DNA of 64,000 nucleotides, taken from Artemia franciscana. Its lineage: Eukaryota; Arthropoda; Branchiopoda; Anostraca; Artemiidae. Below, piece by piece: positions 16,878 through 58,138 of the stretch. The DNA is taken from contig NC_088868.1 in NCBI RefSeq assembly GCF_032884065.1, positions 370,001-434,000 on the forward strand, in the 5' to 3' direction. The translations under genes and the position numbers were made by a program. The notes below the pieces were generated by a model that was not told the DNA's origin, did no database searches, and saw nothing but the letters and a program-made list of their open reading frames with translations. Each line of letters opens with the position of its first letter. Within the stretch, counting starts at the first letter, position 1.

Positions 16878-16885
16878 TAAAGATA

Positions 16886-20877: not shown

Positions 20878-20960
20878 TTCACTGCAGTACTGAGCCACTT
20901 GATGCCAATACAGCTGTGTGCATTTCTCCATTCCAATATATCGAAGATGTACACTTTTGA
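20878..20960 (-). mobile_element. LINE 3'-end fragment
   Basis: CTGCAGTACTGAGCCACTTG then ATGCCAATACAGCTGTGTGC match the 3' end of the LINE at 56080-57205, seen also at 34300 and 59690. Only the tail is present. Confidence 0.6.
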
Positions 20961-21865: not shown

Positions 21866-21985
21866 TGTTTCGTATGCTGACCAATGGTGTGCTGTACCAA
21901 TCTCCTAATTTGTCTGCTTTCCGTTGGGATTGCAATGCGTGGTCGGGGGCAAATAATCCGACTCTTTCCTGAGTCAGATAATAAT
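21866..21985 (-). mobile_element. SINE fragment, lacking the tRNA head
   Basis: Shares an ordered set of blocks with the SINE at 58565-58847: GACCAATGGTGTGC, CTCCTAAT, GGGATTGCAATGCGTGGTCG, GGGGCAAAT and CTCAGA-like. The tRNA-like promoter part is absent. Confidence 0.55.
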
Positions 21986-22075
21986 TTTATAATGGTAACA
22001 ATTTAACAATTATGTTTACTGGGTATAAAAATTAATGATAAAAACATACCAAAAACAATTGAATGGAAATAAAAT
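21968..22075 (+). repeat. 110-bp direct repeat, copy 1
   Basis: GAGTCAGATAATAATTTTAT, then GGGTATAAAAATTAATGATA and ACATACCAAAAACAATTGAA recur almost unchanged at 23160-23272. The two copies bracket about 1.08 kb. Confidence 0.85.
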
Positions 22076-23157: not shown

Positions 23158-23272
23158 ACGAGTCAGTCTGACTCAACGAGTCAGATAATAATTTTATAAT
23201 GGTAAAAATTTAACATTTATGTTTATTGGGTATAAAAATTAATGATAAAAACATACCAAAAACAATTGAATG
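23158..23272 (+). repeat. 110-bp direct repeat, copy 2
   Basis: Second copy of 21968-22075, followed by a short inverted GAATGGAGTTACTCCATTG. The pair could be solo remains of a terminal direct repeat or a segmental duplication; nothing in between decides it. Confidence 0.85.
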
Positions 23273-23399
23273 GAGTTACTCCATTGAATGGAGTAACATC
23301 TCTTCTTTATTTTTTTACAGCCCCATTTTTTTATTTCATTTCATTGAGAAGCGTACTGGGAACAAGCAGAAGAGGGGAAGGAACCTCCCGCAAGCAACG

Positions 23400-24555: not shown

Positions 24556-26250
24556 CTCTAAAATTAAATAAAAAAACAAGTTTATTTAACTGAAAGTAAG
24601 GAGCGACATTAAAACTTAAAACGAACAGAAATTACTTCGTATATGAAAGGGGCTGCTTCCTCATCAACGCCCCACTCTTCAAGCTAAAGTTTGACTCTTT
24701 CTCTCAACTCAACTTTTTAAAACAGTGAAAAACTTTAGCGTAAAGAGCGGGGCATTAATGAGGAAGCAGCCCCTTTCATATACGAAGTAATTTCTGTTCT
24801 TTTAAGTTTTAATGTCGCTCCTTACTTTAAGTTAAAAAAATTTTTTTTTATTTAATTTCTGAACGTTTTTCAATCAATGCATGTTTTGATCTTGGCTCTA
24901 AGCAGAGGAATAATTAAAACGAAATTTGCATACTTATTTTTTGGCTAAATGGCTTTCTCATAGTTTTGATCGAATGATTTTGAGAAAAAATGAACAGGGG
25001 GGGGGGGAAGCCTAGTTGCCCTCCGATTTGTTGGTTTACTTAAAAAGGCAACTAGAACTTCTAATTTTTTTCAAATGTTTTTATTAGTAAAAGATATACA
25101 TAACTAATGAATTAGCTTACGTAACGAACTTTTGTATTCTTATGTTTTTGTTACATATATGAGGGGGTTCACCCCCTCGTCAGCACCTCGCTCTTTACAC
25201 TAAAGCTTAAATTTTGTCCCAATTCATCAAGAATGACACCTGAATCACAAAAGCCCTAGAATAAATAGTTGAAATTACTAAAAATACTTTAGCGTAAAGA
25301 GTGAGGTATTAGGAGGAGGTGAGAACTTCATATGCGTAATAATTTCTGTTCGTTTTAAATTTTAATGATGCTCGTTACTTCAAGTTGAAAAAACTTTTTC
25401 ATATTTGTTTTTTCATTGTTTTTTTTTAATAATGCTAGAAAATCCTGAGCTTCGTTCATGGAGATTTTCTTCCCCCATGACAAATTCCTCCACGGAAAGT
25501 TCCCCCAACATATCCCCTCTTCTCAACCCCTCCCCCAACCAAAAAATCCCCCTGAAAAGGTCTGTACCCTTCCCAATAACCCTTACTATATGCAAGCACT
25601 GCTCAAAGTTTGTAACTTGTAGCCCCTCCCACGGGGACCGTGGGGGAGTAAGTCGTCCCCAAAGACACAGTTATAAGGTTTTTCGACTACGCTGAACAAA
25701 ATGGCTATCTCAGAATTTTGATCCGCTGACTTTGGGAAAATAATTAGCGTGGGAGGGGGCCTAGATGCCCTCCAATTTTTTGGTTACTTAAAAAGGGCAC
25801 TAGAACTTTTCATTTCCGTTAAAATGAGCCCTCTCGCAACATTCTAGGAACACTGGGTCGATACAATCACCCCTGGGAAAAAAAACAAACAAACAAATAA
25901 AAACGCATCCGTGATCTGCCTTCTGGCAAAAAATACAAAATTCCACATTTTTGTAAATAGGACGTTGAAACTTCTACAGTAGGGTTCTCTGATACGCTGA
26001 ATCTGATGGTGTGATTTTCGTTAAGATTCTATGACTTTTAGGGGTGTATCCCCCTATTTTCTAAAATAAGGCAAAATTTCTCAAGCTCGTAACTTTTGAT
26101 GGGTAAGACTAAACTTGATGAAACTTATATATTTAGAATCAGCATTAAAATTTTGATGCGGCTATTGGTATCAAAATTCCATTTTTTAGAGTTTTGAATA
26201 CTATTGAGCCGGGTTGCTCCTTACTACAGTTCGTTACCACGAACTGTTTG
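24556..26250 (+). repeat. repeat A, long copy, inside the LINE
   Basis: The fullest forward copy. Positions 24566-24712 and 24722-24850 form a palindrome (AACTGAAAGTAAGGAGCGAC versus its complement, loop at TTTTTAAAACAGTGAAAAAC). Then come a block with CCTAGTTGCCCTCC, a second hairpin around CTCGCTCTTTACACTAAAGC (25190-25310), a CCAATAACCCTTACTATATG block, CGATACAATCACCCCTGGGA, and the end palindrome CAGTTCGTTACCACGAACTG at 26228-26247. It is composite, with at least two hairpin modules. Confidence 0.8.
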
Positions 26251-28985
26251 AAATGAACCAAGCCACTATTTTAAGTTTTGCTTCTCTCAATATTAGCGGC
26301 ACGAAAGACAAAGACTTGTTAATTAATGAATAATTAGTCCATGACATAGTGTTCTTGCAAGAACATCTCTTGACCAAATCAAACGTTACTAGCCTAAAGC
26401 GATCTTCTGTCCACCATTTTTGTCGAAAGAGGCCTAGAAAATCAGAGGCCGCCCTTCCTGTAGTCTAGCAATTTTCTTCCGATCCCCATCAAAGCCCTCA
26501 GTGTTTCATTGTGATGATAACATCTTAGCGATTCAATGTGACAGTACTGCCTTTATAAATGTTTACTTACCTTGTGATCGACGTTCTATAGCATCGTTTA
26601 CATCTTTTGCTAGATGTTGCTCCAGTTTAAAGTGTCTACTCGAAAGTTTGCGTTTAAAAGACCTAAATTAGGTTTTAGCTGGTGAACTTAACTGTGGCAT
26701 TCTCGGTACCTCTGATAGGTCAATCCTCCTGCTAGAATCACTTCCTAGCAGATATCACGTCGCACATAAGAGCCTTCCATTCACGGATATTCATAACAGA
26801 GGCTATTCAAAATCAAAGGCTGGATCACATGATCACTTCCAGTTCCAGCTTATTATCGTCGATTTTCTGGGTGGACGAAGAGAAGATTGATGACGATCAC
26901 CTTATTCTTATGTGTGATTTGTCCTGTGAGCTATCTGGCCAAACACTTTCGGCTCAGCCGATTTGGCACACGAAGCTGTCGACCATAAAAGTGCCATGTC
27001 ACCTGCTGAAAACTTTGGTTTCCTCGCCTTCAGGCAGAATTGACCTAAATTTCTAATATTAGCAAATTGTCCATTGCCTTAAATCAGCTTCCAAAGCTGC
27101 AGAGCCTGTGGATAAAGTTTGGATCGTTGCTAGGAATCTTAATTGGAACGTTGATCCCGAAGTAAGACGTGCTAAGCAAAAAGCCAAATTTTGGCTGCGT
27201 ATGTGGACATCATCTGACCGACCATCGTCTGGAGCTGTGTTCTCTGCGAAACAAAAGTATAAACTTGAATATAAGGCCGGTTTGAAGAGAGCACGCTTGA
27301 ATGCATGGCTAGGCCCCACGGATAAGGCCTCATGGAATAAGATTATTAATAGCGAGCAATGTTGCCCATCTGCCCTATCTTGTCTCCAGCTAGCTAATTT
27401 TGTCGATCATTATAAGCACATGTTTAGTGTATTTAAGAGTTTTCTTCAGTCTTTTTATTATAAGATGCTTAAACCGCTATTACCATACTGTCTCCTGCAA
27501 GCTCATATTCAGCCAGTAGCAATGTTTGATATTCGCTGGGCTTTAAGAAAAATTAAACGTTCAAATAGCATTGACGGTGAAGGCCTTTATTACCGATTGT
27601 TTGCTTATAATTGTCCTGCTTTACTTAACCATCTACAAATACTTTTCCAGTCTTGCCTAGCACAGTCACTTGTTCCTGATAGTTTCCTTTGTGGACGTGT
27701 AAGGTCTATTCTAAAGCAGGCAAGGACCCCATTTCATGTGCAAATTATCGTCCTATTACAGTACTGTGTTTTTTGAGTAAGTTGCTTGAACATTTATTAC
27801 TACCGGAAATTGAGTCGAAATACGATTTTACGCCTTTTTAGTTTGGTTTTCAGAAAAGTTTCCGTTGCCCCCATGCACAACATATTTTAAGCCGGCTCAT
27901 GAAAGATGCCGTGAAAATAAAAATGTCTTTATACTGTCTTATTGTTTATATTTCTGGGGCTTTCGACAATGTTGTGCACTCTCAAGCTCTATTTTCACTT
28001 CCGTCTTCAGGTGTTAATCATTCTGTATTATGTTTATTTTCTTCTTGGTATTCAAAGTCTTGAATTCAAGTTACCATGAATGGCCAAATATCTGACCAGG
28101 TAAAAATTAATAAGGGAGTTCAGCAAGGTGCCGTGTTGTCTCCTAGTATATTTAAATGTGCACTTGCATCGTGCCTGCGTCCCCTTAAAAGTTTGTTTTT
28201 TACGGTAATATTGGTTTGTCTTATGTTGCATATGCAGGCAACGTTCTACTTGTTGGCCAGACCCGCCGTGGATTGCTTTCCAATTTCACTATATTAAACA
28301 ATGAACTATCTAAGATTGGACTGTCAGTTAATGCGTCTAAATGCGAGTTTATTTTTTTAAATAGCTCTTATGTGATCGCTCCATTTATTGCCGGGACTGC
28401 AGTTCTACCATATTCTACTTCAGTTAGATGGCTTGGTCTGTGTTTTGGCCCAACACTTTCCACTACCTGTTCATCCCTAGTGAATCAAGCCGTGAAAAAC
28501 CTATGCGTCACTTGCAGGAAAATATTCCCAAATAAAAGCCATTACAACCGTAAAGGTTTGTGCATGATTTATAACACTTATTGTGCCCCTGTACTTTTTT
28601 TTTATCGGGCATCGATCATCTGTTTCGCAAGAAACATTACCAGACTCTGCGTGCGGCCTCTTTAAGATGTTGCAAATTTCTCCTCCGGCTTTCTAGATAG
28701 CACCGAAACAAAAACGTCATTGCTCGATTTGGTTTAATAAACGTGCCCTCTCGGATTCAGTCTTTTAGTGGCGATTTATGTAAAAAGACTATCAACTTTA
28801 TTTACGTTTACGACCATCTGCAGCCTTTTTTTCCATATTTATACTGGTTAATTAGTTCATGTTGTCTTTGTTGGTTTGAACTTTTTTTCTCGCTGTTTAT
28901 CGTTTTCGCTTTTGTTTATTTATAATATTCCGTGCTTTTGTTTTTATACTTTTACGGGTAATAAAGTTCATTCATTCATTCAAGG
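26251..28985 (+). pseudogene. LINE ORF2: endonuclease and reverse transcriptase (CR1-like)
   Basis: A non-LTR retrotransposon polyprotein, broken by many stops and frameshifts. The ATG at 26253 starts MNQATILSFASLNISGTKDK, and LVHDIVFLQEHLLTKSN marks the APE-type endonuclease. The linker is open at 27108-27776 (NSEQCCPSALSCLQLANFVD, KRSNSIDGEGLYY). The RT follows with RPITVLCFLSKLLEHLL, YISGAFDNVVH (first catalytic Asp kept), VQQGAVLSPSIF, and YVAYAGNVLL where YADD is expected, so the second catalytic pair is lost. A C-terminal SVRWLGLCFG block precedes the tail TAATAAAGTTCATTCATTC, an (ATTC)n end usual for CR1/L2-type LINEs. Confidence 0.88.
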
Positions 28986-29665
28986 CTGACAACCTCTTAA
29001 ATTAGTCCCAATCCAGTCAACAGAAAATTTGATACAGGCAGCTTGTTTTAATACCAGCCCACCTATCGTACCGTTAAGCGTGCTCAAGTTACCCTTCCTT
29101 GCTTCAAAAATACCAGGTAACAGTGCTTCAGGTCAATCTGTTTGGTAGGAAATGAGACGAAACTAAAAAAATAGAAAATACGGTTATCTTTATCAAGTCT
29201 GTGTTTCTGAGCTAAACCCTATAAAACCAATTCTAAGACCTAAGCTAGACAATTTACTTTTTTTTTCTCTTCTCAACCTCAATTAAAGAGGTATTTTTAT
29301 TTGTCATTTATTGCCTCCCTGTTTGGAATTTTTCCAGAATCATTTCTATACTTTTTTCTAGAATCTGTCCACAATATAGCTTTCCATCCCATTTGCATTT
29401 TGAAAATCTGAAAACAGGATGAAATTGCAAAACTAATCTTCCACCCTGCGTTCGATTACTTGTCTGATTACTTATCCGACAAGTAGGATTACTAATCCAA
29501 TCGTTTCATGAGATACACTTAACGACAGATATTAGTCAGATAGCCATCCGGAACGCTCAGGATTACATATCTGAGGGCGTACACCGTCTAACCCCAGAAA
29601 ACGCAGGATTTTCTGGAAGATGTAACTAGACGGCATAAGGGTTAAATATTATACTGACATGTTAA
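28986..29665. other. unassigned
   Basis: No open frame or family recognised. Confidence 0.4.
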
Positions 29666-30040
29666 AAAAAGGCGAGGGTGTAGTCAATCTCGACTTATCC
29701 CAGTGAAAGATAGGAATGGGGCCACAATTAGTGATAAGCATAGAGTTAAAGAGAGGTGGGCGGAACATTTTGAGAATGTGCTAAACTGAGATTTAGTTGC
29801 AGGAAAAAATATAGAGGAAAATATAGAGGACCTTGGATGTGGAGGAAGATTTGTTTTGTGAGGAAGAATTAGTAACAGTACTAAAAGGATTAAAAAATAA
29901 TAAGGCTCCGAGTGTTAATATTGTGTTAAATTAGATTTTTAAACATGGTTTCCCTGAGGTTTGACATAAGCTACTGAAGATTTTGATAATGATTTTTAAA
30001 AAAGAGGAAGTATCTAATGAGTTTAGGAAAGCTCATTTTT
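29666..30040 (+). mobile_element. LINE fragment (pre-RT linker)
   Basis: VKDRNGATISDKHRVKERWA then EHFENVLN, with the second half (CEEELVTVLKGLKNNKAPSV, FKHGFPEV, FRKAH) in another frame. This is the well-known RERWAEHF...LKNNKAPG linker between endonuclease and RT in I/RTE-type LINEs. Stops and a frameshift are present. It ends at the edge of the inverted duplication. Confidence 0.85.
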
Positions 30041-30205
30041 TTTCCCTTTTTCCCTGTTAATAACCCTTTTACCTTTCTACGTTAAAAGTATCACTCTTCA
30101 TTGCTTAACCAAAAATAATCAGAAAATAAAAAAAATAATGAGAAAATTCAACAGATAATAGAACAAAATTAAAGAAAGTAGTATAAACAAAAAATAATTA
30201 CTTAC

Positions 30206-30439
30206 ATACTGCTTCCTAATAGCGTCAAACGCGCCTTTAAGCATGCCAAGCAGATGCTTGCAGTCTGGATTTTCAGATTTTACTTTCAAAACTTTACAGT
30301 TACCACCTTTTATGGGAAATTCAGCATAGTCATCTTCATTGTAGAGATTTTTCATATAAGCAATGGTTGATACAGATACTGTAAGAAGCTTTATTATGTA
30401 TGACTGAGAGCTTTCTTGGCCCTCAACAGCATAGAACTT
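30206..30439 (-). CDS. HORMA-domain exon, inverted extra copy
   Basis: A 234-nt exon-like segment on the minus strand, bounded by TTTCTTTTTTAG and GTAAGTAA, fully open for 78 codons. It reads KFYAVEGQESSQSYIIKLLT, VSVSTIAYMKNLYNEDDYAE, then CKHLLGMLKGAFDAIRKQY. This corresponds to the first part of the HORMA fold in HORMAD/Hop1 proteins (family: VKRLLAVSxSCITYLRGxFP ... GCYDALQKKY). It differs from the + strand exon at 42987-43220 by about 11 residues and only about five silent changes, suggesting little constraint on one of them. No matching downstream exons were found to its left on the minus strand, so it is either a bystander copy or part of an undetected antiparallel gene. Confidence 0.75.
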
Positions 30440-30572
30440 CTAAAAAAGAAAAGTACATTTTTTTCAAAATATATTTAACTACTTTGATAAAAATAAAACT
30501 TTAAACAAAACTACGATTCTCTCTTGCGGCAACAAAAAAGATAAAAGCCACGAAAATTTCAGAGGCAATCAA

Positions 30573-31735
30573 ACAGCCCATTGTAACGAGCTGTAAGTAA
30601 GGAGCAAAACGGCTCAATAGTAACTAAAACTCTAAAAATTTAGATACCAATAGATATATCAAGAGAATTGGCTTATTGTGCGGATTACATATATATCAGT
30701 ATCATTAAGTTTAGTGCTACCCATCAAACGCTGAGAAAATTTGCCTGATTTTCGGAAAAGCGAGGAACCCCCACCTTAAAAGTCAAAGAAGCTTAATGAA
30801 AATTACGCCATCAGATTCAGCGTATCAGAGAATCCTGCTGTAAATTTTTCGACCTCCTTTCTGCAAAATGTGGAAAATGTGGAATCTGTGAAAGATCACT
30901 GATGTGATTTCTTTTTTAAAGTTTTCCCCAGGGGTGATAGTATAGACCCAATGGTCGTAGAATATCGGAAGAAGGCTCATCCGAACGGAATTCAAAAGTT
31001 CTAGTGACCTTTTTAATTGAACAAAAACACTGGAGGGCAACCAGGCCACCTTCCATGCCCTTTTTTCTCAAAAAATTGTCCGATCAAAAACTTATGATAG
31101 CCATTTTGCTTAGCATAATCGAGAGGCCCAATAAATTTGCCTTTGGAAATAACATGACCCCTTGTTTGCCTCTTGTTTACTTATAGTATTTGTTATTGGG
31201 AAAGTATGCATGCGTTTTTTGGGCGGGGTGGGGGACAAATTTTACGCTGAGGGATTTTGCAGGGGGAAAATTTTCCATGGTGAGGGGGTGGGGTGAAATT
31301 GTCAGAAGTTTTACACTGGGAGAATTTGTCAGAATTCTTATACGAAATTCTTTTCATATCTTGCTTTCTCTTTGCTGACTCAATTTTACGCATGGAGACG
31401 TAAAAGGCAATTTTCCGGGCAAAATTTTTCCGTGAAGGTGGAGCCATACATCACGGCATGATTAAAAACACAATCAAAAATGCAAAAAAAAACAAGTTTT
31501 TCAACTCAAAGTAGGGAGCAACATTAAAACTTAAAACGAACAGGAATTATTAAACATATGAGGGGGGTTTACCCCTCCTCAACACTTCGCTCTTTACGCT
31601 AAACTTTGAATTTTGTCCCAATTCTTGTAAGAACACGAAACACAAGGGTGGTTTAATTAGAACACTAAACAGCTTTTTTTTAAAGAACTAAAAAACTTTA
31701 GCATGAACAGCAAGGTGTTGAGGAGAGGCAAACCA
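30573..31735 (-). repeat. repeat A copy in left arm
   Basis: Reverse orientation: GGAGCAAAACGGCTCAATAG at the outer end, then CAGCGTATCAGAGAATCCTG, a GGGTGATAGTATAGACCCAA block and the arm AGTAGGGAGCAACATTAAAA near 31510. It is mirrored in the right arm. Confidence 0.8.
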
Positions 31736-31749
31736 AAGAATATGTTGAT

Positions 31750-32395
31750 AATTTTAAATAAGACAAAAAACCAAACGAATAAGATATGAGGGACACTAAG
31801 ACTTCATCAGACATGCAGTTCAAATTAAGAGAACAATATTCCAGAGCAATCGTACACGGAACCAAAGGACATAATTGTTACTAACAGCTACAGGAGTAAA
31901 AAGACAAGGTCCTAGGTAAAATTATACCAGTTTTATTAGGGAATTATAATATCCATGTCGGTAGAAATAGGGATAGATGGTATCTTACCCTAGGTAAAGT
32001 TAATGTAGGAAAAGAAAACAGTAATGGTTAAAGACTGCTGCAATTTTGTAGGTGTAACAATCTAGTTAGAACCAATTCAGTATTTGGTCATAAAATGGCA
32101 CATAAGTTAACATGGTATGCACATGAAGATAAAACAACAAAACTTCTTGGGCATATTATTGTAAACCAAAGACTGGCAGGATCTTAAAAGATACTAGGGT
32201 ACAGAGAAGTGCTATTAAATGATATCAAAAGTAAAGATTGCTATCTAGTAGTGGCTAAGGTTGATCTAAAGCTATTATTTAGGAAGACTAACTACCTTGA
32301 GGATTTTTCACTGTTGATGAAAGATGAGGATTTGAGAGCGAATCCTCTAAATTGGAGGATTTTACTTCAGTTCTGTTTTTTTTAATTTCTGTAGG
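31750..32395 (+). mobile_element. LINE endonuclease fragment, left arm
   Basis: Reads SDMQFKLREQYSRAIVHGTK, IPVLLGNYNIHVGRNRDRWY, then LLQFCRCNNLVRTNSVFGHK, MAHKLTWYAHEDKTTKLLGH and VLLNDIKSKDCYLVVAKVDL. These are endonuclease blocks (LLGDFNAHVGRN, LTWYS in active relatives) of an I/RTE-like LINE, with the key Asp-Phe replaced by Asn-Tyr. Several stops are present. Confidence 0.85.
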
Positions 32396-32830
32396 GGAAG
32401 CAACTTTGGTATTTGTGTATTATGTGCAACTCACTCAAGTTTGCGCTGTGTAAAACTCAAGAAAAACCAGTTTTTTCGTTAGTTTCTTCGTTACTTTAGA
32501 AAAAAATTTGGGCTATAGATTTGCACATTAGGGGGAAGGGTTAAAGCATAGAAGTTATGCATCAAAATTTGTTAGGTACAATTATTCTGTGTATTATGAA
32601 GAAAGATTGTTTTTTGACTTCAAACTGTCCAACTACTTTACCCCCCCCCCCCTTCATGTGCTAATATATAGCCCAAATTATAATTTCACACATATTCTGT
32701 CACTTGTCTTGTCTCGCGCTACACTGAAAAAGACTAACGAAGAAACTTGTTTGTTCTCGAGGTTCACACAACGTAAACTTGAGTGAGTGGCGCATAATAC
32801 ACAAGTACCAAAATTCCTTCCCCCTACCGA
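32396..32830. repeat. foldback repeat D (two facing arms)
   Basis: 32400-32612 and about 32625-32820 face each other: GTGTATTATGTGCAACTCAC versus GTGGCGCATAATACACAAGT, and GGGCTATAGATTTGCACATT versus GTGCTAATATATAGCCCAAA, with a C12 run near 32641. Half of it lies in the inverted duplication, which therefore ends in the foldback centre. A relative is at 52790-53040. Confidence 0.7.
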
Positions 32831-33990
32831 AGGGGGATCTTTCCACCAGAGGATTTTCTGGGGGGTATTTTCAGGGAGGATGTTTTCCAGGGGGGTAATT
32901 GCCAAGGGGAGGGGGTAAACGCCTAGAACCGACTGAAAGACTGTGAAAATAAGAAACGCGACTTAAGCATTTTTTTTTATTACTTACATAGCTACACCTG
33001 CAAGTTTTCTTTTGCCAAGTTACTTCGATGGGAAAGATGTATTCGTTTCCAATTTTTTATCATTACAGTTTCAGCATCAACTTCAATTTTAGTCACAGTT
33101 AGTTTTATATAGGCTATCTAATTTATTTCTGTATTTACTTTTAGTGTAAACAGTTGCCGAAAATCCGACTTCACATAGATATAAGCTAGTAAAGAGGAAG
33201 ACTTTCATAGGTTCTTAAAACAGGCAAGACTGAAACTGAGAGTCAGAATTTAAGTATAGTGGCTAGTAACTGAATAGTAGCTAGAAACTGAGAGCCAGAA
33301 ACTGAAACCAGAACTTAGAGCCAGAACTTCGATATAGCAGCTAGTAACTAAATAGTAGCCAGAAACTGAGAGCCAGAATTTCGATACCTATTTAGAATTA
33401 AAACTATTTTTCACCGACGCATCTTCTGGTAAATACATGAATTCATGACTTTTTTTTGTTGACATACTAATTGGTAAGTTGTTTTGATATGGGTTACAAA
33501 CTCAACGAATCATACCTTTTCATCTCTTCCACAACATAATTGTGAAGAATTACTTTTCATCGGTGATAAATGACTGGAAATTTCAGACAGTTGGTCAATC
33601 TTAGGCTGCATTTGGTTTACAGTAATAAAAGTTTCAAGTGTTTCAAAAGAATCACACTTGCCATTATGCAACGTAAGCCTTGTAATGAACGCCCGAGCTC
33701 ATCGTGAAATGCAAAAATGTCAAAATGCAAATGCAAAAATGAGTTCGGAAAAAATGAAAAAAAAATTAGAAGTAATGTCCACCAAATAAGTGATCTTGAC
33801 AATGAATTCGACGTCCAGTAGATGTTTAATATGTTCAGTTTTTTCTTCCAAGTAAATTGTAACTTCATTACGCTATTTCACTAATCGTATCAGCACTCTT
33901 CCCCTGAATACCCAGCTAACTTCTGTTTGCAGAAGAAGAGATGTATCACGGCTACCCATTTCTTCATACTTGAAATCAGCGGGCAATACT
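32831..33990. other. unassigned, with a short tandem repeat
   Basis: Two copies of a 78-bp unit (AGTAGCTAGAAACTGAGAGC at 33276 and 33354) lie at about 33240-33390. Otherwise no gene recognised. Confidence 0.55.
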
Positions 33991-34039
33991 TTGGAAATCA
34001 GTGTTTCTCTATAAGGGCTATAGCGTCATCACAAAGCAC

Positions 34040-34360
34040 ACGGGCTTTGTGTACTGTGTGCCCTAATGAAAGAAAGTTTGAGATGGCTAAGACACATCCT
34101 GCAGATGAAGGATGACAGATTGCCAAAGAAAGGCCTTGTCAGTCTACTTTCTCGGCTAAGGGAGATACAGGTCGTCTCCGAATAGGTTGATAGAATGTTG
34201 CAAGGGAAGATTTAAGAGAAATGAGAACTTCTTGGGAGGGTGTAAAGAGGGAGACTTTAAATAGATTGGGGTGAAGGAGGAGTGTGCATAGCTACGTTGG
34301 CGTCTGGCAGCTTGAAGCTGCAGTGAATCGTTAGTAGCACCAGCATATAATTGATTCGCA
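34040..34360 (+). mobile_element. LINE C-terminal and 3' end fragment
   Basis: LRWLRHILQMKDDRLPKKGL-like reading, followed by AAGGCCTTGTCAGTCTACTT and the tail GAGGAGTGTGCATAGCTACG. It corresponds to the end of the LINE at 56080-57205 on the opposite strand. Stops interrupt the frame. Confidence 0.7.
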
Positions 34361-34529
34361 TTAATCATGCATTATTGGTATTATTTTACCAATTCACTTT
34401 GTGTGGAAAAAGTTGTCAACACTTCCAGAAGTGGCTCATTGGCCTGCAAACTAAAAGTCCTATTACTCTTTTAAGAGTCAAAAGTGATTAGAGGGTGAAT
34501 AGCCTCCCTAACCCTTATTCCCCTACAGA

Positions 34530-34735
34530 CATCCAATTTTTCTTTAAGATAGCCATCTCTATCTAGCACAGTGAAAGGTCCAATACCTATACCTTTTGGA
34601 ATGACACCAACCCCCACTATCCTTGGGGAAAAAGCTGCAAGTTATGCAATTTACCCATTGTTTACATATTGTATTTGTTATTGGGGAAGGGGTGGCATTT
34701 TTTACCTTGGTGTTCAAAATGAAATTAAAAGTAAA
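34530..34735 (-). repeat. repeat A fragment
   Basis: Contains AAAGCTGCAAGTTATGCAAT and TTGTTTACATATTGTATTTG followed by TTATTGGGGAAGGGG, an internal block of repeat A in reverse orientation. Confidence 0.65.
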
Positions 34736-35470
34736 GCTTTCAGGGAATGTTGAGTGGATTGTTGAACTAAGTCAAAACACACCATATGCATGCAGGTTGT
34801 CATAAAGTATTGAGTTATAACTTTCAGGGAATAATGAGGGGAGCGATAGAAGAAAAGGCAGTATGTGCAAGCTACTATTATTAATACTAAGCCTAAGGGT
34901 ATTAATTTGAAAATTTCAGGAATGTTGAGAAGGAAGTTGAAATAAATCAAAACAAAATATATGTATACAGGTTCTCACACAGACATGTCAGCTGTATCTT
35001 ATGAACAGCTTAGAGTATCGAGTTGAAATTTTCATGGCATGATGAATGGGATTTCAACTGATCAAAAAGCAATATTTACGTGCTACTACTAATACTATTG
35101 CTAATCCTATTACTACTGCTACTACTTAGGCTAAGGGAATTATGGTGAAAGTTTCAGGGAATATTGAGAGAAGTTGAACATCATCAAAACATACAATTTG
35201 ACTGCAGGTTGTACAAAAGGGCATATCAGCAATACCTTAGGAACATCTTAAAATACTTATAGGTGATGTTAAACATGCTATGGGGGATTTGGAACTAGCC
35301 AAAAGGCACTATGTGCATGCTACTACTACTACTACTACTTCTACTGCTACCACTACTACTAAAGTTATGGTAATTAAGGTTAAAAGTTAATGGATCACTG
35401 AGGCGATGAAGCAATATCTCAAGAATGGCTTAGGACTGGAATAAGGTATAAAGTAGAAACTTATAAAGTA
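34736..35470. repeat. repeat E, diverged tandem units with (CTA)n
   Basis: Recurring TTTCAGGGAATGTTGAG at about 34737, 34913 and 35151, alternating with CAGGTTGT and trinucleotide (CTA)n stretches (35080-35135, 35319-35365). A related fragment occurs at 20030-20130. Confidence 0.65.
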
Positions 35471-35579
35471 TAAACAAAAAGAAAGGTGATAAGAATAGGT
35501 GTCATAATTATTGAGGCATTAGTCTGTTCTCTGTAGATCCTGTAAAAGCAGGTTGTCCACATCAGGGATGGGAGGGTAT

Positions 35580-35730
35580 CATAAATACATAATTAAAGGA
35601 AATGGGAACTTCCTGGGAGGATGTAAAGAGCGAGGCTTTGAATAGATTGGGTTGGAGGAGGAACGTGCGTAGCTGTGTTGGCATAAGTTGGTTTCGTTCT
35701 GCTGTGAGTTGTTAGTAATAGTGGTAGTAG
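35580..35730 (+). mobile_element. LINE 3'-end fragment
   Basis: GGGAACTTCCTGGGAGGATG, TAGATTGGGTTGGAGGAGGA and a CGTAGCTGTGTTGGC block match the tail at 34220-34310 and, inverted, 56100-56190. Confidence 0.7.
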
Positions 35731-36435
35731 TCATTTTACAAACGAACATCTTATTAGTTAAACCAGGGATTGGATTTTAATAGAACTGTGAAAACGAACG
35801 CGTCAAATGCTGTACTTGAGAAATTACAAATGTAAGCGTTTTGCCATCTACTTCTCATTTCAGCAAATATTTTAAAAATCCAAATTGATGTCAATTCCAA
35901 AATGGCCAAAGTCTGTCAAGAAGTCAAGCAAAATCAGCCTCAGCTTCCTGTACTTTCATGTTTACTTCATTTCACTTCTTAATTTTTAGTTATAATGTGA
36001 TTTCATATGTATATTTTTGGCTATTAAGGGATTTATTCACAGCCAGTTAGCTAAGGTGTATTAGCCCCTTTCCTTCTTGAGTTGGCCTAGGAACCCAAGC
36101 TCTTGCCAATCTTTCAAGCACAATTTTCACGTAAAACCTTCAGAAAAATTACTTGGCTAGTGGCAATGTAGCTAGCCTATTGACAAGTTTAACATTATGA
36201 CAATTATTTTCAACCTAGCCTATCTTTTGACACAGATAGGCCTAATCATTGCTTTTGAACAATAATTTTTATTATTTATATCAAATAGGGTAATTTTTCA
36301 AGCTTGTCACACTAAGCATAATAAAAAGAAATTATGACAATGCTGACAACACAATAATCTACAAAAAATAACAAATCTATAATCTATAAATATTATTCTA
36401 TGAAAAATAACAACTGCACCAAACACTGACAAATA
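35731..36435. other. unassigned
   Basis: AT-rich sequence without recognised features. Confidence 0.4.
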
Positions 36436-36610
36436 ATACTATAAGTAATTTTTAAAATGATTTACTATGAAAATATGGTTCTGCTAGTTTTGTTTTGAAT
36501 ATGTTTATATCATCTGTTAGAAATGTTTCAGGTGGAAGGTTATTCAACATTGTAACATTTTCAGTCACACTCTAAGGATGTGCATTACAGCCTTGCAGCT
36601 TATATTATTT
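36436..36610 (-). mobile_element. LINE C-terminal fragment (CR1-like)
   Basis: The minus strand reads ILRVTENVTMLNNLPPETFL then TDDINIFKTKLAEPYF, the WNNLPPEVVxAxSxxxFKxxL block that ends many CR1/jockey LINE proteins. Confidence 0.65.
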
Positions 36611-36839
36611 AAATATAGGGTAGCCTAATTATTCTGCTTCTCAACACTTATCTTAAATCAAACCTATCCAGATTTATGATTTGGTCTACTAACACCCCTA
36701 TATTTAAGATTGTACTATGTTTTCCAATATCAGGTTCTATTATTGACTATCAGTGTATTTAAATTAACCAGCATTGAGTATAGATCAGTATTTCATCCTT
36801 GATAAAGCTGTGGTATAGAGCTTTTAAAGCTCTATATAC

Positions 36840-38066
36840 AAAGGCAATACCACCAAGATGGTCTCAAGCAGTTGTTTTCCCCATGCACAAGAAAGGTGAA
36901 TACTCTAAAGCAGAAAAATACTGACCTATGTGCCTGACATCACTGGTCAGTAAATTTGTGAAAGAAGCATAAAAGACAGGATATTAACCATGTATCATAG
37001 AGCAATATAATAAATTGTGACCAATATGGGCTCCTACCAAACAAAAGCTATACAACACAATTGTTAGAAACATTCAACAATTAAACACAAGGCCTAGAAT
37101 AGGGTCACAACATTATTTAAGAATTAACAACGCTTCTTGACTACTAAGGTCCCTGCATTGGCCCTGCAGTCCATTTCTGCAGCAGGATTTGATCTCTGGG
37201 TCCTGTATTACCAAGCTAAGGTCAAATCCACTTTGCCGCCACAGGACATAGGGTAACAACATCCTGGTAATTAAAAAAGCTTTTGAAAGTGTATCCCATC
37301 CCAAGGCAATGGATGAACTCTAACAGTACAATTTGCCAAGACAAATACTATCCTGGATAGAATCATTCCTCAGAAATCCAACCCAAAAGTTAGAATAGGT
37401 AACAGCATCTCAAATCCAGCAAAAGTTACCAGCAGGGTAATGCAAGGTAGTGTGATCAGTCCTCTCATCTTCATACTCTTTATCAGCAGAAATCAGAACT
37501 ACCAAAATCTATGCAGATGACACAAAACTCTATAGGCAGTTCATATCATCTCAAGATGTAGCAACACTACAAAAAGACATTAACACCTTAACTGAAAACC
37601 TCAAATACCAAGGTCTCAACTTCATTACATCAAAAATCAAGGTTTTGTGGATAAGGAAGAAAAATACTGCTTTTGTACCTCAACTAACAATAAACAACAA
37701 AGCAGGCTACAGAATACCACTGACACCTGTTGACTCTGAGAGATATATTGGCATTATCAATGATCCATAGCTTAAATTTCATCAGCACACCCAGAAAATT
37801 ATTTCTAAAGTATCAGAGCTAATTGGGCTGATTAGACAAAGTTTCGAGTACTTGGACAATGATACATTTGTAGAACTCTTTAAGGGGATGGTCAGAATTA
37901 AAATAGAGTATGGGAGCATGATTTGAGGACTAAAAGATGGACTCAGCCACCCTAAAAAAGGTCCAAATATGTGCCACCAAACTTCTTCCTAGTTTGAAAG
38001 ACTTAAGCTATGAAGAACAACTATTCAAACTAAACATATCCACCCTAAAATATAGACAAATGAGAG
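36840..38066 (+). pseudogene. LINE reverse transcriptase, split by a SINE
   Basis: RWSQAVVFPMHKKGEYSKAE, LTSLVSKFVKEA and LLPNKSYTTQLLETFN precede the SINE; VIKKAFESVSHPKAMDEL (first catalytic block, Asp replaced by Glu) follows it. Then MQGSVISPLIFILF, an intact YADDTKLYRQF box, a block with DINTLTENLKYQGLNF, and the C-terminal KIISKVSELIGLIR-like region. Multiple stops and frame changes make it non-functional. It is truncated at about 38066 by a Penelope-like insertion. Confidence 0.85.
37114..37248 (-). mobile_element. tRNA-derived SINE with target-site duplication
   Basis: On the minus strand the head reads TGTGGCGGCAAAGTGGATTT (box A-like), followed by AGAGATCAAATCCTGC (box B-like). The body ends with a CCTTAGTAGTCAAGAAGCGT block. 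It is flanked by TAGGGTCACAACAT (37100-37113) and TAGGGTAACAACAT (37249-37262), a 14-bp target-site duplication with one mismatch, and it splits a LINE reading frame precisely. The same family occurs at 48505-48645. Confidence 0.82.
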
Positions 38067-38380
38067 GATATCATAATATCATAAATTGGGTCAATATTTA
38101 AATTCCCTGTGTCTCTATTTATTGAAATATTAGCAAATATATGTTTTTTAATTTCTATAGCCTCCCTCGCCCACTGAGAAAGACCTCTATCATTAGAAAT
38201 AGCTGTAGCCTCATCAAATTGTATAAAATGTTCAGGATAAAAGATTGTGTGTTCAGCTAGAGCCAAAGCAAAAGTTTTGGGAGGCTTTCTTAGTTATAGG
38301 GTTTTTTCTATTGAGTAGCGATGCTCAATAAATCTTTCAGTAAATTGTTGGTGAGTTCTACCAATATAGAACTTTCTTTA
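38067..38380 (-). mobile_element. Penelope-like element, inverted piece
   Basis: The minus strand carries part of the GIY-YIG domain region, ALAEHTIFYPEHFIQFDEAT through AREAIEIKKHIFANISINRD, almost the same as the + strand copy that begins about 20 bp further right. Penelope-like insertions often carry such an inverted partial copy at their 5' side. Confidence 0.8.
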
Positions 38381-39260
38381 TTTTCATTTCTTTACCTTAT
38401 GTACCTACTTTGGGGGAGATGCTTAAAAGAATTTTGGGTAAACATAACATTGATACTTGTTTCCAATCAGTGAGACCATTAGGTAGTTTTCTTAATTCTG
38501 GGAAGGATTTAACCTGGGGGGATTTAGTTAGTGGGGTATATAAAATTCCTTGTTCCTGTGGAAAGTTTTATATTGGTAGAACTCACCAACAATTTACTGA
38601 AAGATTTGTTGAGCATCGCTACTCAATAGAAAAAACCCTACAACTAAGAAAACCTCCCAAAACTTTTGTTTCAGCTCTAGCTGAACACACATTCTTTTAT
38701 CCTGAACATTTTATACAATTTGATGAGGCTACAGCTATTTCTAATGATAGAGGTTTTTCTCAGTGGGCAAGGCAGGCTGTAGAAATTAAAAAACATATAT
38801 TTGCTAATATCTCAATAAATAGAGACACAGGGAATTTAAATATTGACCCAATTCATGATATTCTTTTAAAAAATGAACCAATAGTCGATGGGGGAATTAA
38901 AATTTTACACAATCACCAGGGGACAAGATTACCCACTAGACCAAAAAGAGTTGCTTCAATGTTAGCTTACAAAAGGATTGTTTTGCAACAGAATAATTAA
39001 CTAAGTTTCAATTTTCATAAATTTTCCTCAGTTGCTCTTTGATTCTCATTGAAGTAACTCGTATAGCTGCTTTTCCCTACGTGGATAAGTAGCGACAATT
39101 GTATTTATTATATTTGGTGGTGGTTTTTATTTGTTTTTAGATTAGTTTTCTTTTAATTTTCTATCTTGTGCTGAAGACACCTTGTTTTATACAGGCGAAA
39201 TATCCATGTTGTTTTAGTCTTTTAATTCTACTGGCCGAGTCTCGTTTGAAGTTTTGTTTT
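38381..39260 (+). mobile_element. Penelope-like element 3' part with GIY-YIG endonuclease
   Basis: The frame 38381-39000 reads ISLPYVPTLGEMLKRILGKH, NIDTCFQSVRPLGSFLNSGK, then the GIY-YIG nuclease core GVYKIPCSCGKFYIGRT followed by FTERFVEHR. These elements encode an RT (absent here) and this nuclease, which nicks the target DNA. The remaining C-terminal part is open to 39000. The 3' tail has a CTGAAGACACC...CAGGCGAAATATCC motif (39171-39205), a possible relic of the hammerhead ribozyme known from Penelope-like ends. The element is 5'-truncated and looks like a fossil. Confidence 0.85.
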
Positions 39261-39285
39261 TTAGAGTTTTATCTCTCTTGATTGT

Positions 39286-40560
39286 TTATAACTCTTGATT
39301 TAAAGTTTCAAGACAAGTTGCAGATACAGCATATTCTGACAGTCTATTCCAAAGGATGGTGACTCTGTTTGAAAAGAACTGATTTCTCTGGTGGAGTCTG
39401 CATGATGTCTTAGACAGTTTCTTTGAGTGACATCTGGTAGAAGAGGTGATGGCAAACAAGAATAAATCAGGGACAATGTTTGTTGAGATAAGTTTGAACG
39501 CAGTTATGACATCACTGTGTTTGCGCCTATATGTTAGGCTTGGTAGTTTGAGGTGGCAAAGACGCTCACAATAGAGGACTGTTTGGAATTTGCTAATCAA
39601 TTTTGTTGCTTGCCTTTGGACTGCTTCTAGGATGAATTTGTCCTTTGTGTAAAAAGGGGATACAAGTGTCATGTCAACTTCAGTTTTGTTCAAACAAGTG
39701 CTTTATATAGGGTTGTCATGACTAAGTGGAGAGCAGCTGCTGATGGTTCTCTTTATTATTCCTAGGGTCTGGTTAGCTGATGAAGCTGCAATAGCAACAT
39801 GATAATCAAATTTAAGTAAGTCTCTCATCAACCAAGACACTCAGATCTCCATCCTTGGGAATAGCCTCAAGTGGTAGGTCATTGAGAGTGTACCCAAAAC
39901 GCAAGTTTTTTTTATTCAAAATGAAGGATTTGGCATTTAAATGTGTTGAAGCTCAATAACCAGGCATTTGCCCAATTATTAAGCTAATTTATATCACGTT
40001 GGAAAACATCTGCATCAAGCTGGTTTCTGATACCAACAATGGGTTTTGAATAATCTCCATATAAAGTTAAATAATTGTGTACTGCACCAGGGGCATCATT
40101 AATAAAAATATTGAAGAGGGTAGGGCCAAGGATATTACCTTGGAGCACACCACTCTTGACTGGCAATGAATTTGAATAAATCAGCATTCCATGAGATGTG
40201 AATATTCTGACCTGTTGTTCTTTCAGCAAGGAATTCCTTAATCCAGCCAAAAACTTGGTTGTTTATTCCTGTAGCATGTAACTTGACAATCCGTCTCCTG
40301 TGACAGACCTTACCAAAGGCTTTGGCTAGTTCAAAGAGGGCAACATCAACAGGAATTCTCATGTCTATTAGATTTGTAACAAGATTGTAAGACTACAGCA
40401 AATTTGTGTCAACAGATCTACTAATTTGGAAACCATGTTGAGAATGGTGAAGGATGTCATTCTTTTCAAGATGTTTAATAACTGCATCATTAACTATTCC
40501 TTCAATCATATTAATAATCAATGTTTTTTAACATAATTCCAATGGTAAGATAGTCTACAC
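39286..40560 (-). pseudogene. LINE reverse transcriptase and C-terminus (CR1/jockey-like)
   Basis: From 40560 down: HSQHGFQISRSVDTNLL, DVALFELAKAFGKVCHRRRI (FDLAKAFDxV box, catalytic Asp altered to Gly-containing form), ATGINNQVFGWIKEFLAERT, SGVLQGNILGPTLFNIFIND and LYGDYSK where YADDxK is expected. Then, after gaps, VSPFYTKDKFILEAVQRQAT, RLCHLKLPSLTYRRKHSDVI, and FFSNRVTILWNRLSEYAVSA. Order and motifs are those of CR1/jockey-type LINEs. Frameshifts and stops break it, and both catalytic boxes are damaged. Confidence 0.88.
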
Positions 40561-40979
40561 TCTAGATCCTATAGACAAGATTTTACAATAATTTAATTGC
40601 TGAAGTAATGAGAATTTTGTATATTTAGGAAATTAGTATAGGAAGATGGACAAAACTTACGAATAGTATCCAGACCATTAAGGATTCCCTAGAAGGGTAT
40701 TTTGATGTACCTCCATCTATCCTTTCTTTTATGCCCTATCTTTTGTTGACCTATAAAAGTGAAACTCTTTCTTCATAATATGAAGAATAATTTTACCTAA
40801 CACATTTTGATGCATAACTTCTATACTTTACCCCTTCCCCCTATTGTGCAAATCTATAGCCCAAATTTGTTTCTAAAGTAACAAAGAAACTAACAAAAAA
40901 ACTGGTTTTTCTTTTGCTTTACACAGCACAAACTTGAGTGAGTTGCACATAATACACAAATACCAAAATTGCTTCCCCT

Positions 40980-41600
40980 ACAGAAATTAAAAAAACAGAA
41001 CTGAAGTAAAATCTTCCAATTTGGAGGATTCACTCTCAAATCCTCATCCTGGAGACTACCAACGTCATAGCCTCTTGGAAGGTAGTTAGTCTTACTAAAT
41101 AATAGCTTTAGATCAACCTTAGCCACTACCAGATAGCAATCTTTACTTTTGATATCATTTAATAGCACTTCTCTGTACTCTAGTATCTTTTAAGATCCTG
41201 CCAGTCTTTGGTTTACAATAATATACCCAAGAAGTTTTGTTGTTGTATCTTCATGTGAATACCATGTTAACTTATGTGCCATTTTATGACCAAATACTGA
41301 TTTGGTTATAACTAGATTGTTTTACCTACAAAATTGCAGCAGTCTAACCATTACTGCTTTCTTTTCCTACATTAAATTTACTTAGGGTAAGATACCATCT
41401 ATCCCTATTTCTACCAACATGGATATTATAATTCCCTAATAAAACTGGTATATTTTTACCTAGGACCTTGTCTTTTTGCTCCAGTAGCTGCAAGTAAAAA
41501 TTATTTCCTTTGGTTTTGTGTACGATTGCTCTGGAATATTGTTCTCTTAATTTGAACTGCATGTCTGATGAAGTCTTAGTGTCCCTCATATCTTATTCGT
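40980..41600 (-). mobile_element. LINE endonuclease fragment, right arm
   Basis: Minus-strand counterpart of 31750-32395: KNIPVLLGNYNIHVGRNRDR, then LLNDIKSKDCYLVVAKVDLK. It has its own differences (for example YLTLSKFNVGKESSNG). Confidence 0.85.
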
Positions 41601-41639
41601 TTGGTTTTTTGTCTTATTTAAAATCATCAACATATTCTT

Positions 41640-42865
41640 TGGTTTGCGTATGCTCAACACCTCGATCTTCATGCTAAAGTTTTTTAGTTCTTTCAAAGAA
41701 GCTGTTTATTGTTCTAATTAAACCCCCCTTGTGTTTTGTGATTCGTTCTTACAAGAATTGGGACAAAATTCAAAGTTTAGTGTAAAGAGCGAAGTGTTGA
41801 GGAGTTACAAACCCCTCTCATATGTGTAATAATTTCTTTTCGTTTTAAGTTTTAATGTTGCTCCCTACTTTGAGTTGAAAAACTTTTTTTTTGCATTTTC
41901 GATTGTGTTTTTAATCATGCCATGATGTATGGCTCCACCTTCATGGAAAAATTTAGCCTGGAAAATTGCCCTTTATGTCTCCATGCATAAAATTGAGTTG
42001 GCAAAGAGAAAGCAAGACATGAAAAGAATTTTGTATAAAAATTCTGGCCAATTCTCCCAGTGTAAAACTTCACCTGAAAATTTCACCCCCACCCCCTCCC
42101 TGTGGAAAATTATTCCCATGCAAAAACCCCAAGCGTAAACTTTGTCCCCCACCCCACCCAAAAAACGCATGCATACTTCCCAATAACAAATACTATAAGT
42201 AAACAAGGGGCAAATTTTATAACTTAAAGACCTTTCCTGGGGGCTGTGAGGGGTCATGTTATTTCCAAAGGCAAATTTATTGGGCCTCTCGTTTATGCTG
42301 AACAAAATAGCTATCTTAAGTTTTTGATCGGACGATTTTGTGAAAAAAGGGCATGGAAGGTGGCCTAGTTGCCCTCCAGTATTCTTGTTCAATTAAAAAG
42401 ATCACTAGAACTTTTAAATTCTGTTCGAATGAGCCTTCTCCTGATATTCTACGACCATTGGGTTGATACTATCATCCCTGGGAAAAACTTTGAAAAAAAA
42501 AAGAAATCACATCTATGATCTTTCACAGATGCCACATCTTCCACATTTTGCAGAAAGGAGGTCGAAAAATTTACAGCAAGATTCTCCGATACACGGAATC
42601 TGATGACGTAAATTTTATTAAGCTTCTTTGACTTTTAGGGTGGGGATTCGTCCCTTTTCCGAAAATCAAGCAAGTTCTCTCAGGCTCGTAGCCTTTGATG
42701 GGTAGCACTAAACTTAATGATACTGATATATCTGTAATCTGCATAATAAGCCAATTCTCTTGATATATCTATTGATACCTAAATTCCGTTTTTAGAGTTT
42801 CGGTTACTATTGAGCCGTTTTGCTCCTTACTTACAGTTCGTTACAACGGGCTGTTTGATTGTCTC
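41640..42865 (+). repeat. repeat A copy in right arm
   Basis: Forward orientation, from an arm around 41825-41890 to GCTCCTTACTTACAGTTCGT at 42821-42840. Mirrors 30573-31735. Confidence 0.8.
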
Positions 42866-42986
42866 TGACATTTTTGTGGCTGTTATCTTTTTTGTTGCCG
42901 CAAGGGAGAATCATAGTTTTATTTAGAGTTTTATTTTTATCAAAGTAGTTAAATATATTTTGAAAAAAAATACTTTTATTTTTTAG

Positions 42987-43220
42987 AAGTTCTATGCTGT
43001 TGAGGACCAACAAAGCTCTCAGTCATACATAGTAAAGCTCCTTACAGTATCTGTATCAACTATTGCTTACATGAAAAATCTATACAATGAAAATGACTAT
43101 ACTGAATTTTCCATAAAAGGTGGTAACTGCAAAGTTTTGAACATAAAATCTAAAAACCCAGACTGCAAGCATCTGCTTGGCTTGCTGAAAGGCGCGTTTG
43201 ACGCTATTGGGAAGCAGTAT
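42987..43220 (+). CDS. HORMA-domain protein (HORMAD/Hop1-like), first visible exon
   Basis: HORMA proteins of this class bind the meiotic chromosome axis and control recombination and synapsis. The exon is 234 nt, phase 0 to 0, bounded by TTTTATTTTTTAG and GTAAGTAA. It encodes KFYAVEDQQSSQSYIVKLLT, VSVSTIAYMKNLYNENDYTE, KGGNCKVLNIKSKNPDCKHL and LGLLKGAFDAIGKQY. This matches the opening of the HORMA fold (HORMAD1: VKRLLAVSVSCITYLRGIFP, then GCYDALQKKY). It joins in frame to LRELVLGIYTDP of the next exon, as the family KKYLRMxVLxxYTxP does. The upstream exon with the start codon was not found. The exon lies in the right arm of the inverted duplication and has a twin at 30206-30439. Confidence 0.85.
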
Positions 43221-43368
43221 GTAAGTAATTATTTTTGTTTATACTACTTTCTTTAATTTTGTTCCATTATCTGTTGAATTTTCCCTTTTTTTTTATTTTC
43301 TGATTATTTTTGGTTAAGGAATAAAGAGTGATACTTTTAACGTAGAAAGGTAAAAAGGTTATTAACAC

Positions 43369-50360: not shown

Positions 50361-50500
50361 CTACGAGAACTTGTACTTGGAATATATACAGATCCTAGGG
50401 ACAGAGAAGGCTCTTTCGTTGAATCGTTCAATTTTCTCTTTGAATATGGAGACGGCAACCACGTTACATTGTCTTACAAGCCGAATGGAGAAGGAAAAAT
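50361..50500 (+). CDS. HORMA-domain protein, second visible exon
   Basis: A 140-nt exon after TTTTTTATAG and before GTAAGTATTT. It enters in phase 0 and leaves after two bases of a codon. It encodes LRELVLGIYTDPRDREGSFV, ESFNFLFEYGDGNHVTLSYK and PNGEGK, matching the central HORMA strands (HORMAD1: YLRMVVLAVYTNP, then CYQFKFKYTNNGP). A different frame across it is also open for 116 codons but makes no known protein. The flanking introns are 7.1 and 7.5 kb, both full of transposon debris. Confidence 0.88.
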
Positions 50501-52339: not shown

Positions 52340-52690
52340 AGTAATTGTTCCACTTGTGATTGTGGGGATGAAGTGACTTTATATCATTATCTTTTTGAGG
52401 GTAAACTTTTTGAAAATGAAAGAATCGAACTGCAATTTAAATTACAAGTTTTCTTTCTTTGATATTTTCAATATTAATGTTATTTGGTTTATTAAAGAGG
52501 CTCGATATGCCGTTCTCAGTATGCCGACCGAAGAGCTGGATATTGTCTGTAGTTTTCTTTTTGTTGTGCTTTTAGCAGATTTTTTTTTGTACCTGTGTTT
52601 GTGATATATTATATGGGCTGTGTTTTATAGTTTAGGTAGTGAAATATTGTGTACGGGTTTAGTCACTGAACAAAATCATTCATTCATGGT
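52340..52690 (+). mobile_element. LINE 3'-end fragment
   Basis: CSTCDCGDEVTLYHYLFEGK then LFENERIELQFKLQVFF is the Cys-rich C-terminal block of I/CR1-type LINE proteins (C..C...E...H.L..C...E..R). It ends with an ATTCATTCAT tail near 52676, like the LINE at 26251-28985. Confidence 0.65.
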
Positions 52691-52789
52691 ACTTGTATGA
52701 TAAACGCCCTATCGCTCAAGTTGTTCATTCATTGACGCATTATAGAACCGGTTATTTTGCGTTAGTTCCTTTCAGCTTAGCGTAAGATA

Positions 52790-53040
52790 AGACAAAGAGA
52801 AGTGACAGAATAGATGGAAAATATATAATTTGAGCTATATATTTGCATCTTAGGGGAGTAAAGTGTTTGGGCATTTTGAAGTTAGAAAACAATTCTTACT
52901 ATATGATATGCAGAATAATTATACCTAACACATTGGGCGTGTAGAACCGCTATACTTTACAATCTCGCACAACCCCCCTCCCTACCCCCAGCCCCTAATG
53001 TGCAAATATACGGCCCAAATTTTGTTTTAAGTATTATATT
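52790..53040. repeat. foldback repeat D copy
   Basis: TTTGAGCTATATATTTGCAT (52837) faces GTGCAAATATACGGCCCAAA (52999-53018), with AATTATACCTAACACATT in the middle, as in 32500-32690 and 40780-40870. Confidence 0.65.
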
Positions 53041-57998: not shown

Positions 57999-58138
57999 GT
58001 CCTCAAAAAATAAGATGAATCGAAAGGATGTTAACCGTATCTCAAAGGACCTGCTAGACGTTCTATATTCGTTCTGTTACAACAGCTCATTTAGTGGGAA
58101 GAAGGAGTACTTGACGATGAAATTTTACTATTACCCCA
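57999..58138 (+). CDS. HORMA-domain protein, third visible exon
   Basis: A 140-nt exon after TTGCTTAAAG and before GTAAGTTTAT. Its first base completes the split codon of the previous exon (AT plus G), and it leaves one base over. It encodes SSKNKMNRKDVNRISKDLLD, VLYSFCYNSSFSGKKEYLTM and KFYYYP. This corresponds to the C-terminal part of the HORMA core, where HORMAD1 has LIRKIYILMQNLGPLPNDVC and then LTMKLFYYDE. The exact phase match across both introns is strong evidence for one gene. The safety-belt end, closure motif and 3' exons must lie beyond this window or were missed. Confidence 0.86.

Follow-up and report, generated by a model that had tools for sequence, protein, structure and literature searches.

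A 64,000-nt stretch of the brine shrimp Artemia franciscana genome (RefSeq assembly GCF_032884065.1, contig NC_088868.1, positions 370,001 to 434,000 of the forward strand; hereafter the window, with positions counted from its first base) carries an exon for a HORMA domain twice, in inverted copies; this duplication is real and ordinary in kind. Two 2.6-kb arms, each carrying one copy of the exon, mirror one another across an 8.1-kb spacer. The account that we favor and consider moderately probable is that a HORMAD-type gene underwent a small inversion, internal to it or at its 5' end, through which the flipped 8.1-kb segment came to be bordered on either side by inverted copies of 2.6 kb of the gene. 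The right copy would have stayed collinear with the downstream exons and would serve the gene, while the left copy, lying antisense and upstream, would most likely be a passenger, whose lack of function we infer. The parts of the structure are as follows.

30055..32612, minus (the gene-sense reading strand): left arm (repeat search, blastn, local alignment).
30206..30439, minus, antisense to the gene: left HORMA exon copy, 234 nt, open, splice sites intact (sequence, Pfam).
32613..40761, no strand: repeat-rich spacer, 8,149 bp (local alignment; its inversion relative to an older orientation would follow from the junction repeat described below).
40762..43367, plus: right arm, collinear with the HORMA gene (repeat search, blastn, local alignment).
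42987..43220, plus: right HORMA exon, provisionally numbered exon 2, phase 0-0, matching HORMA profile positions 1 to 69 of 209 (sequence, Pfam).

A sequence-only reading of this DNA had described mirrored arms of about 2.6 kb around about 8.15 kb, and this description was borne out by blastn and local alignment. An inverted-repeat search returned mirror-image pieces of the arms, 61 to 356 nt each and 82 to 96% complementary. With blastn, the arms formed a single match (30055 to 32606 against 43367 to 40766) with 89.9% identity over 2,617 columns including gaps and an E value of 0.0, and local alignment paired 2,538 bases at 93.0% identity, with 177 substitutions (7.0%) and 26 insertions or deletions spanning 88 gap columns. 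Repeat search, blastn, and alignment thus all found a segment with inverted copies at both of its ends. A dispersed repeat makes up part of each arm; its other copies in the window are ~72 to 82% identical, well below the identity between the arms, which indicates that the arms are one duplicated segment rather than two independent insertions. Read in gene sense, G/A differences between the arms were asymmetric (left G and right A at 38 sites, left A and right G at 17; P = 0.006, uncorrected for multiple looks), and C/T differences were balanced (30 versus 27).

That each arm holds the same 234-nt HORMA exon, open and with its own acceptor and GTAAGT donor, had also been proposed, and alignment and Pfam agreed. 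Each copy has an acceptor (TTTTTTAG) and a donor (GTAAGT), and one frame is open in both. The copies are identical at 216 of 234 positions; the 18 differences fall into 11 replacement and 7 silent codons, so that the earlier estimates of about 18 differences and about 11 replacements held, and that of about five silent changes was too low. Against the Pfam HORMA family (PF02301; cutoff, 24 bits), the right exon scored 42.9 bits and the left 43.2 bits. When the exon alone was compared with solved structures, a HORMA protein was matched weakly (E = 0.012), and an unrelated protein came next (E = 0.11).

The right exon belongs to a longer coding series. Using pieces of HORMAD1, we located two further exons by tblastn (E = 0.015 and 0.37, respectively).

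50361..50500, plus: next HORMA coding exon, 140 nt, acceptor AG, donor GTAAGT (HORMAD1 tblastn, in-frame joining).
57999..58138, plus: following HORMA coding exon, 140 nt, donor GTAAGT, which extends the profile match to 167 of 209 (HORMAD1 tblastn, in-frame joining).

The right exon and these two exons join in frame across AG acceptor and GTAAGT donor sites, and this joining indicates that the right exon is collinear with the gene. The 171-residue product of the three exons matched Pfam HORMA at 91.3 bits (E = 7.9e-26) over profile positions 1 to 167 of 209, and its best solved relative was HORMA domain-containing protein 1 (8j69; E = 8.3e-13), which we take to be the human protein. All six distinct PDB sequences with E values of 1 or below were HORMA proteins: HORMAD1, one named just HORMA domain-containing protein, two Caenorhabditis elegans HIM-3 entries, HTP-2, and HTP-1. 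HORMAD1, HIM-3, HTP-1, and HTP-2 are chromosome axis proteins with a meiotic role. The product resembles these proteins in its three in-frame HORMA exons and differs from full HORMAD1-type proteins in that the window yielded profile positions 1 to 167 of 209 and not the C-terminal part. For the rest of the HORMA domain, no convincing exon was found up to position 64000 by tblastn with a HORMAD1 piece (the closure motif was not searched), and the remainder of the gene may lie past the end of the window. The exons at 50361 and 57999 were each found just once in the window, with no further copies to accompany the left exon. A second HORMA gene on the minus strand, built on the left exon, was therefore rejected within the window.

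The evidence on the order of events comes largely from a palindromic repeat at the inner edges of the arms. We take the copy at 32387 to 32831 to be like a miniature inverted-repeat transposable element; its ends match each other at 84% over 104 columns. All three copies were placed by blastn and alignment.

32387..32831, no strand: palindromic repeat, whole, lying across the inner edge of the left arm.
40762..40985, no strand: the same repeat, truncated at the inner edge of the right arm, the putative derived junction.
52687..53030, minus: third copy, which ties together both sides of the junction 32612/32613.

The third copy aligns to 32496 to 32810, on both sides of the left inner edge, with an E value of 8.7e-35. 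The right arm holds the arm-side part of the repeat alone and diverges from the third copy at 40762. The simplest explanation for a repeat that is intact across the left inner edge and truncated at the right one is that the junction 32612/32613 is old and the junction 40761/40762 is new. In a window-wide comparison, this left inner junction was the only one of the four actual junctions to be spanned by a repeat. When the inner end of the right arm was placed against the reversed spacer, the join was likewise spanned by the third copy, a result that is not independent of the identity of the arms. The right outer edge would be old as well, judging by the continuity of the gene. Old and new junctions would then alternate, as expected if the spacer was inverted when the segment doubled or afterward. 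This alternation is suggested for the two inner edges by one repeat and for the right outer edge by the gene, and the left outer edge is unproven. On these grounds the spacer was probably flipped once.

The divergence of the exon copies bears on what the left copy has been doing. The exon has diverged about as much as the remainder of the arms (18 of 234 versus 159 of 2,304 positions), and the ratio of replacement to silent divergence (dN/dS) for the exon pair was 0.39 (Nei-Gojobori). In neutral runs, which placed substitutions at random with a spectrum taken from the arms, the mean number of replacements was 13.4, compared with the 11 observed (a count this low or lower had P = 0.14 over all runs and P = 0.27 when runs with a stop were set aside). 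The frame stayed free of stops in 48% of runs at 18 changes each and in 69% at 9, so that the open left exon was rejected as a signal of selection: chance alone gives an open frame this often. The sequence-only reading had taken the excess of replacements without a stop as a sign of relaxed or altered selection on one copy; since an open frame is expected by chance, the Pfam scores are alike, and the replacement count is unremarkable, we do not retain that suggestion.

The replacements themselves look somewhat mild. Compared with 18 neutral, stop-free changes, the mean BLOSUM62 score of the replacements was 0.73 rather than -0.23 (P = 0.02), their radicality gave a P value of 0.04, and none of the 11 fell within residues 17 to 35, a stretch that was picked post hoc (P = 0.03). 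When 12 or 14 neutral changes were placed on a single copy instead, the contrast was less clear-cut, and the corresponding P values were 0.05 and 0.04 for BLOSUM62, 0.55 and 0.28 for radicality, and 0.10 and 0.07 for residues 17 to 35. Five random mutants were derived from each copy, every one with 9 neutral, stop-free changes; the ten scored 27.1 to 42.8 bits against Pfam, and none reached the 42.9 and 43.2 of the natural exons. Swapping residues one at a time at 9 of the 11 replaced sites shifted the score of the right copy by -1.6 to +1.4 bits (sites 7 and 9 are not covered by the match). The mutant and swap scores together indicate that the real differences between the exons are mild. The pattern fits either one constrained and one drifted copy or two lightly constrained copies, and it does not indicate which copy would be which. 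Naming the decayed copy by homology was abandoned, as the Pfam scores are equal and 78 residues with one distant homologue are too few to polarize the changes. Where the arms consist of repeat sequence, polarization by three outgroup copies assigned 17 changes to the right arm and 15 to the left, with 17 undecided.

Two histories would produce a flipped segment with inverted copies at its ends. A staggered double break could have been filled in, copying 2.6 kb as the segment turned over; or the arms could first have arisen as an inverted duplication and then recombined in a crossover that flipped the spacer. Both fit equally well, and the data do not separate them. Arms, identity, and exon copies would all be explained without any inversion by a plain inverted segmental duplication, in which the segment was copied upstream in reverse, was originally longer than is visible today, and later lost or had replaced the sequence beyond 40762 on the right. 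The repeat-rich spacer would make such replacement easy, but this explanation requires an extra event that cut the repeat on the gene side, at the very end of the arm homology, and we regard it as unlikely while still deserving serious weight. An assembly artefact, in which two diverged haplotypes or paralogous loci were joined tail to tail, would account for two copies that are similarly intact, as alleles would be, and the 7% divergence of the arms is within the range possible between haplotypes or paralogues. Against it, the 64,000 bases contain no N and are free of gaps, and a repeat intact at one inner edge and truncated at the other is not an obvious product of a false join; we consider an artefact quite improbable. 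Several observations weigh against the favored account. The reconstructed junction 30054/40761, between the left flank and the reversed spacer, was not spanned by any repeat in the window. We infer the older orientation from one repeat element, and, as the main rival view would have it, the right side could have lost the remainder of that repeat later, with no inversion needed to arrive at the present structure. A 107-bp run identical between the arms (41518 to 41624 and its mirror in the left arm), where 0.08 such runs are expected, hints that some gene conversion between the arms may have occurred. Moreover, the left exon matches HORMAD1 better than the right does (BLOSUM62, 85 versus 77; tblastn, 37.0 versus 34.3 bits), a gain that was reached in 1.9 to 2.5% of runs with 8 to 18 neutral changes starting from the right copy; drift in the opposite direction, of the right copy from the left, would be unremarkable. 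A left copy with no visible decay sits uneasily with a pure passenger, a weak objection that was raised post hoc with one distant homologue.

The remaining explanations would give the left exon a role. It could be one state of an invertible switch, in which recombination between the arms alternates the expressed exon copy. Both copies have open frames and undamaged splice sites and score much alike against HORMA, and their replacements are milder than fully neutral ones (P = 0.02 to 0.04), as a switch would have it. The exons lie at the outer ends of the arms, with 151 bp beyond the exon in the left arm and 147 bp in the right, and a crossover between inverted repeats exchanges just the parts on its spacer side. 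Nearly all crossovers would thus leave the exons in place, and a swap of the whole exon would be rare because the crossover must fall in the outermost 147 to 151 bp. Of the 2,361 identical arm positions, 1,995 belong to runs that lie entirely on the side of the exon facing the spacer, 131 to runs entirely beyond the exon, and the rest to runs that touch it. The exchange of an expressed segment by crossover that a switch needs is therefore not provided for, and we consider a switch exceedingly unlikely. The earlier proposal that recombination between the arms would flip the spacer and swap the exons fares accordingly: the junctions suggest one flip, but 131 of 2,361 identical positions leave little room for a swap. 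Alternatively, a transcript running over both arms could form 2.6 kb of double-stranded RNA that covers exon 2 and its splice sites, with small interfering RNAs (siRNAs) against the gene, editing, or concealment of exon 2 from the spliceosome as possible outcomes. The geometry allows such a hairpin, as is predicted from the pairing of the arms: 2,361 of 2,538 aligned positions (93%) are complementary over 2.6 kb, a span that takes in exon 2 with its splice sites, and the inverted repeat is homologous to an exon of the would-be target gene, as expected of a hairpin RNA source (216 of 234 positions identical between the arms). Exon 2 is 234 nt in phase 0-0, so that skipping it would keep the frame, and a hairpin RNA of Drosophila simulans, described below, is a partial precedent (PMC10317233). 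Against a hairpin source stand the 8.1-kb loop, an exon that diverges as much as the remaining arm, and scans for a first exon that gave no convincing candidate; overall we judge it quite improbable. In a specific version, slightly more doubtful still, the pre-mRNA of the gene itself folds over exon 2, so that a self-made hairpin tunes a meiotic axis gene, whether by siRNAs, by editing, or by skipping 78 residues in frame, and selection on pairing keeps the left exon intact.

Where the transcript begins matters to that argument. A search for a first exon with an ATG and a phase-0 donor gave one candidate in the left flank (20000 to 30054, plus strand) and, between 32613 and 42986, four on the plus strand and two on the minus strand, none of them convincing; the left-flank candidate and at least two others sit in repeats. 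A stricter scan left two candidates, both within an inverted repeat of the spacer itself, and neither was convincing. Both arms may therefore lie within the first intron of the gene, or the left arm may lie outside the gene. The spacer's own inverted repeat measures 302 bp at 95% identity (38075 to 38376 and 38561 to 38862) and lies beside an open frame at 38344 to 39000, which presumably represents a Penelope-type GIY-YIG end (by its motif; the frame had no Pfam match).

The window as a whole is repeat rich, and its HORMAD-like gene, split by introns, points to animal DNA. On the minus strand, transposase sequence in two frames (4098 to 5765; Pfam DDE_Tnp_1_7) is, we assume, of the piggyBac type, and a PIF1-type helicase frame lies at 7228 to 8109; a weak reverse transcriptase match fell below the Pfam cutoff. 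A single open frame of 160 residues on the plus strand (16395 to 16877) matched Pfam Cornichon at 95.8 bits (cutoff, 29.2) and is possibly an intronless retrocopy. Within that frame starts a 1.35-kb tandem duplication of 97.6% identity (16775 to 18129 and 18125 to 19467; blastn). Tandem arrays at 61564 to 62699 and 53725 to 54544 have units of roughly 135 to 146 bp and about 170 bp (blastn). A tRNA scan with bacterial settings and an Rfam scan of the window each gave no matches.

Searches for relatives of the locus gave 8 pattern matches among viral contigs and 72 among prokaryote contigs, none of which was confirmed, and the right arm had no match among plasmids. A literature search on HORMAD1 and Artemia found no paper, and the locus was absent among the matches listed for HORMAD duplication, for HORMAD1 in crustaceans or parthenogenesis, and for inverted repeats with splicing or ADAR. 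Comparable structures are known elsewhere. A report on inversion O8 of Drosophila subobscura describes a one-sided inverted duplication arising from staggered breaks (PMC5080602); as in O8, a gene-containing piece from one breakpoint would be inverted-duplicated at both ends of the putatively flipped segment here, whereas both arrangements were characterized there, and here the segment is 8 kb and the older order would follow from one repeat. In Atlantic herring, inverted duplications of 8 to 60 kb with 85 to 99% identity flank three of four inversions, and recombination between preexisting inverted duplications was argued (PMC11499932). The likeness is in multikilobase inverted duplications that flank an inverted segment, at 93.0% identity and around a putatively inverted one in our case; the herring inversions are megabase sized and both haplotypes were sampled, in contrast to one assembled arrangement of 8.1 kb. 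The Drosophila simulans hairpin RNA Dsim-hp58 adjoins its target gene and contains an inverted-repeat fragment of exon 2 of that target (PMC10317233). Like Dsim-hp58, the structure described here is an inverted repeat derived from an exon of a nearby gene; unlike it, it is known from sequence, has an 8.1-kb loop, and has arms that are mostly intron.

The locus offers a readable case in which a small inversion would have duplicated part of a gene and left an antisense copy of an exon alongside it. Were the hairpin to prove true instead, the locus would capture self-targeting RNA regulation as it first arises, in a gene of the meiotic chromosome axis.

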